Assembly (NCBI GenBank): GCA_040756435.1
Contig: JBFLZD010000021.1
Location: forward strand, 1 to 55,058
From: Spirochaetota bacterium
GTDB lineage: Bacteria > Spirochaetota > UBA4802 > UB4802
DNA: 55,058 nucleotides
Direction: 5' to 3'
Part shown: piece after piece, positions 30,717 through 37,294 of the stretch
Layout of the letters: each line of letters begins with the position of its first letter
Numbering within the stretch: position 1 is the stretch's first letter
Notes under the pieces: generated by a model
Databases searched by the model: none
What the model saw: only the letters and a program-made list of their open reading frames with translations
What the model was told of the DNA's origin: nothing
Made by a program: the position numbers and the translations under genes

Positions 30717-31430
30717 TTAAATTTTATTTACATCCTTCTTCATGGATTCCCATATCTCTTTAAGTCCCTTTTTCCACTTTTCATTTTCCAATGCTTTACC
30801 CCGCCATTTTCTACCTTCAATGACATTACGTTCCAGTACTTGCCAACCATGTTTATAATCAAACCACTTCCACTGGCTTCCAGCTTTATAGATACATTCA
30901 CAATTTTCTATTTTAATCAATACATCTGAGGCTTTAACATAGTCAAAATAAACCCAGTGCATACCAGCATAAAAGATATATTCTGGATCTTGTATGCTCA
31001 ATAATGCATCAAAACCCCTTGTATGATTAAAGCTTTTCCAGTCCAACCCTGCATGGTATATATATTTGGAAGAGTGCAATTCTATAAGGCGGGCAAGCCC
31101 CCTTTCATAATCAAACTGCTTCCAGAACCTCCCTGCCCTGAAGATATACTCATCATTATCCCATTTAAGAATTTGATTAATCCCGCATTGATAATCAAAG
31201 TTTTTCCAATAAATACCTGCATGATACAATCCATCGATATCATTATTTTTTATGAAATACTCCATTGCCAGAGCAACATCAAAGTATATCCAATCTTTGC
31301 CAGCTTTTACAATATAATCTGTTACATTGCAGGCTAATAGTTCCTGAACCAGGTTTAACGATCGGTCATGCTTTTCTAATCCTTCTCTGTAAATTGCCTG
31401 GGCTTTTTTTATGTTATCTTCTTTAATCAT
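30717..31430 (-). CDS. Protein of six exact 28-residue repeats, unknown function
   Basis: After a short helical N-terminus (residues 1-38), six tandem repeats of exactly 28 residues occupy residues 39-206. The consensus is Y-I-Y-x-A-G-x-x-W-x-x-F-D-Y-x-x-G followed by x-x-x-L-I and an acidic turn. The Trp recurs at 47, 75, 103, 131, 159 and 187. A basic tail (residues 207-237) follows. I do not recognise a named family; a compact solenoid binding surface is the simplest reading. It is the third gene after the MoxR-type ATPase and the VWA/metallopeptidase protein (41 bases downstream), so it may be their substrate or adaptor. No signal peptide. Confidence 0.75.
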   Translation of the reverse strand: MIKEDNIKKAQAIYREGLEKHDRSLNLVQELLACNVTDYIVKAGKDWIYFDVALAMEYFIKNNDIDGLYHAGIYWKNFDYQCGINQILKWDNDEYIFRAGRFWKQFDYERGLARLIELHSSKYIYHAGLDWKSFNHTRGFDALLSIQDPEYIFYAGMHWVYFDYVKASDVLIKIENCECIYKAGSQWKWFDYKHGWQVLERNVIEGRKWRGKALENEKWKKGLKEIWESMKKDVNKI

Positions 31431-31471
31431 ATTGTATGTTCTAAATCATCTAAAACAATATTGCTATGGTA

Positions 31472-32860
31472 TCAAACAATGGGAATTGCTTTCCCAAATG
31501 GTGCCACAAAATTTTCATTGCGGCTTTTTGTTATTAGCCATAAGGTATTGGGATACGGCTTCAATCTATCAACATCATATATATATCCATCCGTAATGAC
31601 AAGCACCATTTCCTTATGCCCTTTTAAATAGTCATTAAAAAATGATGAAAAGAAGGTTGCACCGCCATATCCTGATTTAATGAGCTTCCAGTCACCTTTT
31701 TTATATTCATACGGTCTTGCTGATGTGTCAGAACGTATGAATGTGTCCCCATGTTTTACCGGGATGAAATATTCTTCGTCAACACATACAAGAAAGACTT
31801 TATATTTGCCGGTTAAATCTTCTATAATCCCAAAAGCTGTTTCCAGATCTTCCCTTTGTGCCATCATAGAAGCAGAAATGTCGATAGCTACTGTGATTAT
31901 TTCACTCTGTTTATAAGCCCTGCCTGCTATATATATTCCCCGGGCAACATATCTTCGGTTAAACCGCGAATGGGTGTAATACCACTCGTTTGAATGCGAC
32001 ATGTAGTCAATAATACTTTTGATATGATTTTTATAGTATGAACTATCGCACATATTAATTTTTTCAAGTAATGCCACTATATCCATATAAGACCGTTCAA
32101 CAGCACACCATTCATCTTTTTTTGCATGGGCAATAATTTTATTCTTCACTGAGCGCTTGTTGGCGTTATCTTCGGCAAAATAATGGACACCGGTTGGAAG
32201 ATGTGAATTTTCATCCTGGAGGACTATTTTTTCATCATCTACGGATGAATGAGAAAGATAATTTTTATAATTAAATTCATCATCATTTTCCTGGCTATTA
32301 TTATGAGCTATCGCATACCGATCATCATGAAACATTCCTTTTTGTTTTTCTATATCACCATGATGATGTATAACTGTTAATTCATTTTGTTTTTTTAATA
32401 GCCACCGATATACATCCTCCCACAGTGGATCCTGGATAGCTGTTTCATCATAAAACTCCTGAGGAATAAATGGTAAGCCTTGAGGAATAGTAAGAACAGG
32501 TACATCCCACTGATATTGCCCTTTATGAGAAAAAAAACTTTTGCTATGGTTATGAATGAATGTATTGACCACCATATCCTGGGCAATGTTCTGCAACACA
32601 ATATCACCTGCCTTTGCCCTGTGTTCATGTTCCAGTATGACATGAAGCATTTCATGAACTAAAAGACCAATAAATTCATCCTGCGAAATGGTGTTTAAAA
32701 AATCAGGATTGTAGTATAAAACCATTCTCTGTGATGCAACCAGTGATAATGTTGGGATTGATTGTGTTTCTACAAATTCAACGGCATGATAAAAATACGA
32801 GGTAAACCTGCTCTGTTTCCAGATTTTAAGAAGTGCTTCGTTAATAAACATATTGGCCAT
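31472..32860 (-). CDS. Metallopeptidase-like domain plus VWA-like domain protein (DUF2201 type)
   Basis: The N-terminal half has a gluzincin-like HEMLH motif (residues 69-73) within LLVHEMLHVILEHEHR. The C-terminal half is a VWA-like domain starting TVAIDISASM, a DxSxS metal-ion-adhesion site, with VITDGYIYD later. This arrangement is the putative metallopeptidase/VWA family often encoded next to MoxR-type AAA+ ATPases. Here the ATPase gene ends 5 bases upstream. The family is thought to work as a chaperone or proteolytic module loaded by the ATPase; the substrate is unknown. It is soluble and cytoplasmic by sequence. Confidence 0.87.
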   Translation of the reverse strand: MANMFINEALLKIWKQSRFTSYFYHAVEFVETQSIPTLSLVASQRMVLYYNPDFLNTISQDEFIGLLVHEMLHVILEHEHRAKAGDIVLQNIAQDMVVNTFIHNHSKSFFSHKGQYQWDVPVLTIPQGLPFIPQEFYDETAIQDPLWEDVYRWLLKKQNELTVIHHHGDIEKQKGMFHDDRYAIAHNNSQENDDEFNYKNYLSHSSVDDEKIVLQDENSHLPTGVHYFAEDNANKRSVKNKIIAHAKKDEWCAVERSYMDIVALLEKINMCDSSYYKNHIKSIIDYMSHSNEWYYTHSRFNRRYVARGIYIAGRAYKQSEIITVAIDISASMMAQREDLETAFGIIEDLTGKYKVFLVCVDEEYFIPVKHGDTFIRSDTSARPYEYKKGDWKLIKSGYGGATFFSSFFNDYLKGHKEMVLVITDGYIYDVDRLKPYPNTLWLITKSRNENFVAPFGKAIPIV

Positions 32861-32865
32861 TGCTA

Positions 32866-34023
32866 TTACACATCAAGAAAAACCTGAACTTTTTGCATGA
32901 TACTCTGTTTTTCTTCCGGATTATCAATATAGTTTAACGCATCCGGTATTTGTGTAAACAGCCCACAGTCCCTTACCAGTGAATACATGAATGATACTCG
33001 TGTATCGGCGCGGGTGCAGGATACAAATTTCAAGAAATTGGATAACTTTTTCAGCAATTGTTCATCGGGGCTGCCACTTCTTTTTACATTGTCATCGTGC
33101 AGCATATGAATGGCGCCGTTAACAGCCCACAATATATCTTCAGCGGGAATAGTATCATTTAAAAGTTCTTGCAATTTATTTTCATCACCTGCAAGGATAT
33201 CATTGCTGCTTATAGCTCGCGGCGATACATACTGTAAAATAAAATCTGTGCCGGCAATATCGCCAATTAAGGATATAATAATTTTTTGAAGCACCGTATA
33301 ATCATTATTTAAGAGATAGTTCCTGAATTGCTCATCAGTCTGGAAATTATATGCCTTATACAGTGTATCTGAAACCTGATGCCATCCACGGGGATTAGGA
33401 TTAACCGATGAACTATCCCATAATCTGTCAGGGTACGTTGCAATGTATTGGATAACCGCAGGATGAATGCCTTCTTCAATTGCCCACTGCAGCCAGTTTG
33501 AAGCATCCGGAACCAGATTAAATACTGCTAATCTACCATCAAGAGCAGAATCATCAAAATCAGTGATGACTGTATTATCTGAATCACCTAAATTACCTGC
33601 AAGGACAATAGCAGTCTTTGGTGGCAATATATGTTCGCCACACATACGCTCGGTTATAATCTGAAATAATGTCTGGATAACAGTTGGGTGAGCCCTGTTT
33701 GCCTCATCTAAAAACCATAAAATCCCATTATAGCCTTCCGGAATAGTTTCTGGAGGGATGAATCGCGGTCTGAAATAAATCATCCTTTTAAGATTGTTGT
33801 CGGGTACAGGATAGCCACCCAAGTCCACATTTTCTTTGAATGCTAATCGCGTATCTATGTAATAATAATTATGTTTTTTTGCAACCTGCTCTACAATTGC
33901 TGATTTTCCAACACCCGGATACCCAACTATTTTAATAGCATAGTTGATTGAACCTTCAGTTTGCAGGTATCTGTCAAGAATCTCAATTAATTCAATAGTT
34001 GATACTTCTACTGGCCGTTTCAT
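32866..34023 (-). CDS. MoxR-type AAA+ ATPase
   Basis: Walker A is GYPGVGKSAIVE (about residue 40), Walker B is GILWFLDEANRAHP, sensor 1 is AIVLAGNLGDSD, and a lid domain follows the arginine-finger region DDSALDGRLAVF. The length of about 385 is normal for MoxR/RavA-like ATPases. These couple ATP hydrolysis to remodelling of VWA partner proteins and their substrates. The ATG at 34023 is preferred over the TTG at 34047. The VWA/peptidase gene begins 5 bases after its stop, a fixed pairing in many genomes. Confidence 0.88.
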   Translation of the reverse strand: MKRPVEVSTIELIEILDRYLQTEGSINYAIKIVGYPGVGKSAIVEQVAKKHNYYYIDTRLAFKENVDLGGYPVPDNNLKRMIYFRPRFIPPETIPEGYNGILWFLDEANRAHPTVIQTLFQIITERMCGEHILPPKTAIVLAGNLGDSDNTVITDFDDSALDGRLAVFNLVPDASNWLQWAIEEGIHPAVIQYIATYPDRLWDSSSVNPNPRGWHQVSDTLYKAYNFQTDEQFRNYLLNNDYTVLQKIIISLIGDIAGTDFILQYVSPRAISSNDILAGDENKLQELLNDTIPAEDILWAVNGAIHMLHDDNVKRSGSPDEQLLKKLSNFLKFVSCTRADTRVSFMYSLVRDCGLFTQIPDALNYIDNPEEKQSIMQKVQVFLDV

Positions 34024-34068
34024 AATAATTAATTCTATCGTAAACAATATATTTATTCAATAATTTAT

Positions 34069-36674: not shown

Positions 36675-37268
36675 TTATTGCGCAGGATGGTAGGTATAGT
36701 TACGCTTTATGTATATATCTTCAACCTTAAAATCATTAGAACGCAATAAATTAAATAACTCCCTTGCCAGCGTAAGATTAGATAATCCAATTACCACTCC
36801 ACAATGTCTGGTTATAGCATTAGGAACAGGTAATAACGCATATGATAATTCAGGATAATTGTTCTGCAACCAGTAATGTGCACGCATTCCTTCGGCAACT
36901 GACACAAATGTGATTAAACATCGGGTAGTATCTTTTCTGAAAAGAGAAACAAAAATTTTGTGAATATGCAATCGTACCCCTAATAGAAAAAAAGCAATCA
37001 TATCAAATAATGATTGAGGTTTATATCCTTTCCCTTTTATTATTTCAAAACGGGCAGTTGAATTATCAATGACAACGGTGTTCATGATATTACCCGATTC
37101 AACACACCATTGCTCTATCTCTTTCTTCATAGAAGGGTCATCGGAAATAATCTCTACAGATGAACCATCACTGACGGTATTCATAGTTTTAGCAATCAAT
37201 GCAACAGATATGGGACAACTATATCCACGGGTATCTATAACTGTTTTTTCACTTTGATTTTTAGCCAT
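36675..37268 (-). CDS. TusA-like / DUF3343 fusion protein (sulfur or selenium carrier)
   Basis: Residues 1 to about 75 are a TusA/SirA-type sulfur carrier with the active-site Cys in VIDTRGYSCPISVALI. Residues about 110-195 match DUF3343 (putative Se/S carrier): CLITFVSVAEGMRAHYWL, then LLPVPNAITRHCGVVIG with a conserved Cys, and VEDIYIKR. The two domains usually occur as separate proteins or adjacent genes in selenium and sulfur trafficking. Here they are fused through a hydrophobic basic linker. ATG at 37268 follows AGGTC. A relay of persulfide or selenide between the two Cys is a natural inference. The APC permease follows immediately. Confidence 0.8.
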   Translation of the reverse strand: MAKNQSEKTVIDTRGYSCPISVALIAKTMNTVSDGSSVEIISDDPSMKKEIEQWCVESGNIMNTVVIDNSTARFEIIKGKGYKPQSLFDMIAFFLLGVRLHIHKIFVSLFRKDTTRCLITFVSVAEGMRAHYWLQNNYPELSYALLPVPNAITRHCGVVIGLSNLTLARELFNLLRSNDFKVEDIYIKRNYTYHPAQ

Positions 37269-37294
37269 CAAACTATGACCTGATAGAGTATATC

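Follow-up and report, generated by a model that had tools for sequence, protein, structure and literature searches.

Pairs of a MoxR-type AAA+ ATPase and a protein with a VWA domain are common, and to our knowledge few of them have known clients. Nor do we know of a solenoid subunit in chaperones of the NorQ/NorD and RavA/ViaA type, or of a DUF2201-type metallopeptidase domain in the Bat (Bacteroides aerotolerance) proteins. The excerpts of published work used here describe (i) that in NorQ/NorD the target is activated only with the metal ion-dependent adhesion site (MIDAS) of the VWA domain, which the binding of the ATPase does not require, and that VWA partners are proposed to plug the MoxR ring generally (PMC9976466), (ii) that in spirochaete Bat loci tetratricopeptide repeat (TPR) proteins accompany the MoxR–VWA genes (PMC3557215, PMC5700661), the TPR protein being proposed as a scaffold of the complex and the Bat proteins being predicted to carry transmembrane helices (PMC3557215), and (iii) that MoxR-vWA ternary conflict systems are defined by VMAP, iSTAND, FtsH and beta-propeller third components or effectors (PMC7159879). 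Here, we analyze a stretch of 55,058 nucleotides from the draft genome (3.6 Mb in 126 contigs) of a Spirochaetota bacterium (contig JBFLZD010000021.1), hereafter the window, in which a MoxR gene, a gene for a DUF2201-type metallopeptidase–VWA protein and a gene for a 28-residue-repeat protein form a trio. On balance, we favor a model in which the three proteins constitute one ATP-driven machine for client remodelling, with the repeat protein, a predicted solenoid, as a dedicated adaptor or scaffold that acts mainly on the VWA–peptidase subunit.

The open reading frames between positions 34023 and 30717 bear out the three genes, their order, coordinates and gaps as described in an earlier note on this DNA (Table 1); 5 bases separate the MoxR gene from the VWA gene and 41 bases separate the VWA gene from the repeat gene. 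We place the MoxR start at the ATG at 34023 and not at the longer TTG at 34047 because most orthologues start at the ATG site.

Table 1. Coordinates of the three trio genes in the window
Feature	Position	Strand	Remarks
MoxR-type AAA+ ATPase	32866..34023	minus	385 aa; ATG 34023, stop 32866; trio gene 1
DUF2201-type metallopeptidase–VWA protein	31472..32860	minus	462 aa; trio gene 2
Helical-solenoid repeat protein (predicted)	30717..31430	minus	237 aa; trio gene 3

By prediction, the third protein is a helical solenoid. It contains six units (residues 39-66, 67-94, 95-122, 123-150, 151-178 and 179-206) besides N- and C-terminal helices. The earlier note had spoken of six exact 28-residue repeats; this is right for the length, which is exactly 28 residues in each unit, and not for the sequence, as pairs of units are identical at 6-11 of 28 positions. 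The units share the pattern AGxxWxxF, with A, G, W and F invariably found at unit positions 5, 6, 9 and 12, respectively, and self-identity at offset 28 amounts to 48 positions compared to a maximum of 30 in 2,000 shuffles (offsets 10-99). Structure prediction, which the earlier note had proposed for this protein, gives a confident all-helical solenoid: AlphaFold run on five sequences returned a mean predicted local distance difference test score (pLDDT) of 93.4, a predicted template-modelling score (pTM) of 0.85 and 16 helices, two short ones per unit. The number of units is constant across 22 orthologues (alignment A2, 22 of 25 genomes; the fragments in G159, G181 and G216 were left out), the only length change being one two-residue insertion (L044), and the A, G, W and F residues are nearly unchanged across the units of these orthologues. 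Unit positions 4 and 8 vary from unit to unit and are conserved from species to species: at position 4, R98 and Y154 are present in 22/22 rows and K182 in 95%, and at position 8, H158 is present in 95%. We read these unit-specific conserved residues as a putative partner-binding face, as expected of a protein with a conserved partner.

The repeat protein has no match above threshold in Pfam, NCBIfam or PADLOC, no match to the Pfam TPR models up to E 1 and none to the Pfam helical-repeat families ARM, HEAT, PUF, Sel1 and LRV. Foldseek against the PDB gave no match up to E 0.001, a negative from which no new fold should be concluded. The top rows of VIA-align are adaptin-, TOG- and PUF-type solenoids and designed repeats, with a best Z of 10.8 that lies within the range given by the tool as common for helical repeats, and in BFVD the solenoid matches an uncharacterised phage protein (E 2.7e-5, template-modelling score 0.55). 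One weak PDB sequence match of the solenoid profile, to the nuclease NucT (E 0.001), was discounted on judgement alone. At the DNA level, Tandem Repeats Finder reported no tandem repeat at the locus.

The VWA protein joins a putative N-terminal metallopeptidase domain, with HEMLH at residues 69-73 and a match of the protein to DUF2201_N (PF13203; E 6.3e-14, 52.7 bits, cut-off 23.2), to a probable C-terminal VWA-like domain with the complete MIDAS pattern D-x-S-x-S, T, D (D327, S329, S331, T402 and D424). The HExxH and MIDAS residues do not vary among 19 aligned sequences (alignment A3, 19 of 25 genomes; G004, G181 and G205 were left out as fragments, G136 and G213 for over-long starts, and G159 as well). 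Nearly the whole protein (residues 6-460) matches phrog_1314 with E 3.7e-36. The single protein has no match in a PDB sequence search, and MJ1213, reached with the VWA profile at E 0.19-0.24 only, was rejected.

The ATPase matches Pfam AAA_5 above the cut-off (E 1.5e-5) and bpMoxR below it (16.1 bits, cut-off 27), and residues 26-352 match the PHROG profile phrog_1297, 'ATPase', with E 3.5e-59. Walker A (GYPGVGKS) and, within Walker B, the LDE residues are conserved in 17 aligned rows (alignment A4, 17 of 24 genomes), and the gene for this AAA+ domain adjoins that of the VWA protein as is characteristic of MoxR–VWA pairs; we assign it to the MoxR clade on the basis of profile hits that link it to MoxR-like proteins of phages and bacteria. 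In G181 (L154:4766-5867) the MoxR gene is split over two overlapping frames, reflecting either a broken gene or an assembly error.

The three genes are inherited together. In the genus of the window the repeat gene is present in 5/5 genomes, and it is not found in one other member of the family that was searched (71% complete). Across the order, 25 of 46 genomes have the solenoid gene; exactly these have the VWA gene as well, and the MoxR gene is present in 24 of them and in none of the other 21, counts that are uncorrected for shared ancestry. In the lone carrier without MoxR (G205), the VWA gene runs into the contig end. Four genera are mixed for carriage (g4 3/6, g5 4/5, g12 1/2 and g21 1/2), and each genome in these genera has either all three genes or none, the MoxR gene of G205 apart. 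In the phylum, a larger solenoid profile matches 25 of 392 genomes, all within the order; the count is 25 and not 26 because a weak match in G366 with two stops vanished with this profile. The VWA profile matches 26 of the 392, i.e. the same 25 and, by a distant partial N-terminal match, G019. A scan of the whole GTDB for the solenoid recovered four loci. Three of them carry Spirochaetota or Spirochaetia in the record title and the fourth is an 'uncultured bacterium'; the scan used two strict peptide patterns, recovered few known members and is no proof of absence from other phyla. Among the 392 phylum genomes, the trio is found in one order of uncultured bacteria.

Gene order tells the same story for the VWA and solenoid genes. 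A single contig carries the two in 23 of the 25 genomes (in G159 and G181 both are at contig ends), and in 22 of these 23 they are on the same strand and at most 45 bases apart or, often, overlapping. The MoxR gene is on the same contig as the VWA gene in 24 genomes, in 19 of which the two are direct neighbors. The suggestion in the earlier note of a dedicated third component is therefore sustained: the repeat family is not widespread away from MoxR genes, as in the 392 phylum genomes the solenoid was found nowhere outside the order, and the gene is not missing beside the pair in relatives, as it adjoins the VWA gene in 22/23.

The trio is under purifying selection and nothing suggests diversifying selection. 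The ratio of nonsynonymous to synonymous substitution rates (dN/dS) of the solenoid gene is ~0.11 in three of four within-genus comparisons (dS is saturated in the fourth), and the ratio within the genus is 0.05–0.09 for the VWA gene, 0.06–0.09 for the MoxR gene and 0.06–0.12, where computable, for two neighbouring genes, all of these values being rough on account of high dS. Further alignments contained 21 VWA, 17 MoxR and 22 solenoid rows. In a tree of the concatenated trio (23 rows; G004 and G181 left out, missing genes as gaps), G216 of family f6 groups with G067 and G159 of family f3 with 100% support in the Shimodaira-Hasegawa-like approximate likelihood ratio test (SH-aLRT), and therefore the trio was probably transferred between families.

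How does the locus compare with the described systems? As in the Bat loci, to the extent that the excerpts describe them, a MoxR protein, a VWA protein and a helical-repeat protein are encoded together. TPR units are 34 residues long, whereas the unit in the window has 28 residues and matches no TPR model. As in NorQ/NorD, RavA/ViaA and other MoxR–VWA chaperones, the VWA partner has a MIDAS site, and as in the ternary conflict systems there is a third conserved component beside MoxR and VWA, as far as the cited excerpts go (PMC9976466, PMC7159879). Unlike in the conflict systems, the P-loop in the window is canonical and evolution is slow: VMAP, iSTAND, FtsH and beta-propeller have no Pfam match in the trio, and no component diversifies rapidly, with dN/dS of 0.05-0.12 for the trio and a constant unit number. 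The earlier note had considered a solenoid third component to be new. This holds for the present family; helical-repeat partners of MoxR–VWA pairs as such are already known from the excerpts on Bat TPR proteins, and an LRV protein accompanies a related pair in Thermus. We recognized no description of this trio in the open-access literature and found no report there on MoxR in spirochaetes with a helical repeat. As far as searched, three things appear to be new, namely the family of the solenoid, the strictness with which it accompanies a DUF2201-type pair, and the connection with the phage N4 gp24/gp25 type outlined below.

Among the roles of substrate, adaptor and recognition module raised in the earlier note for the repeat protein, that of an adaptor or scaffold fits best. 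In our model, for which we infer complex formation, the direction of action and a client, the MoxR ATPase would form a ring, as others of its family do, and the VWA domain would dock on this ring and grip an acidic residue of the client via the MIDAS metal, as NorQ/NorD suggests. The DUF2201-type protein would, by this analogy, connect the ATPase with the client. Its HExxH domain may act as a protease on the client or serve for binding only; the machine would be chaperone-like and possibly a maturation protease. The solenoid would bind mainly the VWA–peptidase subunit and either keep the client in place or orient it, or provide an anchor for the complex. The distances between proteins correlate best for VWA–solenoid (r 0.93; 0.79 for MoxR–VWA and 0.72 for MoxR–solenoid), in a comparison in which some rows are truncated and common descent accounts for most of the signal; given the tight linkage to the VWA gene and this best correlation, the solenoid looks like the partner of the VWA protein first.

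Besides the share of common descent in these correlations, several observations weigh against the model. In G140, opposite-strand genes separate all three trio genes, and in 5 of the 24 genomes the MoxR and VWA genes are not adjacent, with gaps of 391 to 5,481 bases and in some cases intervening genes. The VWA protein matches the DUF2201 VWA-like model (PF09967) below the cut-off (E 0.15, 12.6 bits, cut-off 26.4), and its AlphaFold model is poor (pLDDT 39) and was not used. Finally, the core activity of the pair needs no solenoid because DUF2201 pairs elsewhere in the phylum and in phages are without it. Whichever role it has, a co-inherited third protein on the VWA side offers a direct handle, since one could purify it, locate its position on the pair and fish with it for the client.

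The pair itself has relatives well outside the order. Its genes combine phrog_1297 and phrog_1314 next to each other and correspond in family and in order to the phage N4 gp24/gp25-type pair of Schitoviridae and other tailed phages, an identification of gp24/gp25 with these two PHROGs that rests on the LUZ7 label 'N4 gp24-like protein'. In the excerpt available, N4 gp24 is a 'putative ATPase, AAA superfamily', gp25 belongs to the 'vWFA Super-family' and their function is listed as unknown (PMC2784036). Seven phage relatives of the VWA protein match PF09967 above the cut-off, and the phage partners carry DUF2201_N and DUF2201. Of seven phage regions opened, those of LUZ7, S6 and TR2 (Schitoviridae), a Sinorhizobium jumbo phage and a cyanophage have an ATPase gene ahead of the DUF2201-type gene, either immediately or separated from it by one gene; in phage Av-05 an ATPase is encoded on the opposite strand at a distance of a few kilobases, and in pVa5 no ATPase is annotated within the stretch opened. 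In LUZ7 (L157:6531-7736), S6 (L158:6035-7177), TR2 (L159:5966-7066) and Av-05 (L160:4656-6092) the protein is annotated 'HNH endonuclease', as is phrog_1314; this is probably a wrong label that has been propagated, because the proteins match DUF2201_N and DUF2201, with no hit to an HNH model up to E 0.01. No relative of the solenoid was found with the N4-type pairs or on plasmids: tblastn with two family members against 50,697 phage records, a search of plasmid records and a pattern scan of IMG/VR gave no match, and it is on these and the GTDB pattern scan that the reach of the family outside Spirochaetota is judged. A phage pair whose function is listed as unknown (PMC2784036) is in this way tied to a chromosomal system, and each could help to study the other.

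In Spirochaetota outside the order, DUF2201_N matches 10 genomes, eight of them over the cut-off (G169 and G194 are below it, and no MoxR was seen in G169). In all eight, MoxR lies beside the DUF2201 gene (nine loci), and in none was a relative of the solenoid found. On plasmids of Thermus, Oceanithermus, Synechocystis and Burkholderiaceae, the ATPase gene adjoins the DUF2201 gene or is one gene away in 5 of 6 regions. These other bacterial pairs have the same domain architecture as the pair in the window; their DUF2201 proteins score far lower on the VWA profile of the order (at most 77.5 bits), and their third genes differ from the solenoid gene. On the Thermus oshimai plasmid pTHEOS01, a gene for an LRV-repeat protein overlaps MoxR upstream (L168:2030-2920; PF01816, E 2.6e-11). 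On Burkholderia and Cupriavidus plasmids (L172:3522-4451 and L173:3531-4448), a gene for a protein of ~305 aa lies between the ATPase and DUF2201-VWA genes; one of these proteins matches DUF3150 with E 0.0011, below the cut-off, and the other, alike by eye, has no match.

Few as they are, these cases suggest that the third subunit of the pair may vary with the lineage. It is tempting to go further and regard MoxR–DUF2201 as a general ATP-driven machine of phages, plasmids and chromosomes, the target of which would be set by an exchangeable third subunit, i.e. the 28-residue solenoid here, the LRV protein in Thermus, a DUF3150-like protein in Burkholderiaceae and none or small phage-specific proteins in phages; we hold this generalization only tentatively and rate it as clearly less probable than the adaptor model for the trio.

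Two side observations concern the neighbors of such pairs. On pTHEOS01 the pair is followed by a 746-aa protein (L168:5401-7641) with no convincing Pfam assignment and a UvrD-helicase gene. In G019 (L143:6814-10001) a protein of >1,000 aa begins beside the MoxR–DUF2201 pair; it matches no Pfam model and shows no clear short repeat.

The main alternative to the adaptor model is that the solenoid is the client: the pair would fold, unload or cleave it, and the solenoid would act downstream alone. NorQD is encoded beside the enzyme that it matures, according to the excerpt of PMC9976466, and the solenoid gene, the last of the three, is co-inherited as strictly as a sole substrate should be. Such a client is nevertheless not what the protein looks like, with its regular, confidently predicted fold and no visible cofactor or metal site that would need maturation. 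Moreover, DUF2201 pairs elsewhere, in genomes and phages, have no such substrate, and the closest analogue, the Bat TPR proteins, has in the excerpt been proposed to scaffold the complex (PMC3557215). We therefore regard the client role as unlikely, although it is the strongest competitor.

Alternatively, the trio could be an anti-phage or anti-plasmid conflict module with the solenoid as its recognition part, similarly to the MoxR-vWA ternary systems, and the earlier note had mentioned a conflict-related role for such pairs. The patchy presence within genera, the probable move between families indicated by the grouping of G216 with two f3 genomes, and the related pairs on phages and plasmids, one of them beside a restriction-modification gene, would be in line with this. 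The trio itself speaks a different language: it is under purifying selection, with a solenoid dN/dS of ~0.11 and a unit number that is fixed in all 22 rows, contains no effector domain and no hypervariable component, has no PADLOC match better than E 0.005, and combines a bpMoxR match below the cut-off with the lack of a beta-propeller. For ten proteins of three plasmid relatives, PADLOC returned nothing beyond weak AAA hits (IetA and mad8), and the recurrent neighbors of the trio are metabolic (acyl-CoA dehydrogenase) or regulatory (TetR). In total, these data do not support the conflict-related role, which we consider improbable.

The genes flanking the trio differ from lineage to lineage. 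A TetR-type regulator (at least 61% identical) is encoded directly upstream of MoxR in 8 of 25 genomes, and genes for acyl-CoA dehydrogenases adjoin the trio or its TetR gene in 10 of 25 (including G216 and G067). That the trio is a TetR-controlled maturation set with the divergently encoded acyl-CoA dehydrogenases, weak candidates at best, as clients is an idea prompted by these neighbors that we consider very improbable, because the eight TetR-bearing genomes form one clade in the trio tree and are not independent, because neither neighbor occurs in the stretches read from the window's own genus, and because in G163 (L165:6918-9377) a TetR gene (60%) and a divergent acyl-CoA dehydrogenase gene are followed by other genes with the trio absent, so that the dehydrogenases can do without it there. 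This empty site in G163 also fits the trio behaving as a unit.

A scan for promoters and terminators gave counts no better than those in shuffled sequences. Elsewhere in the window, the start of the product of 36675-37271 resembles by eye what we take to be a TusA/SirA-type sulfur-transfer domain, presumably followed by a second domain.

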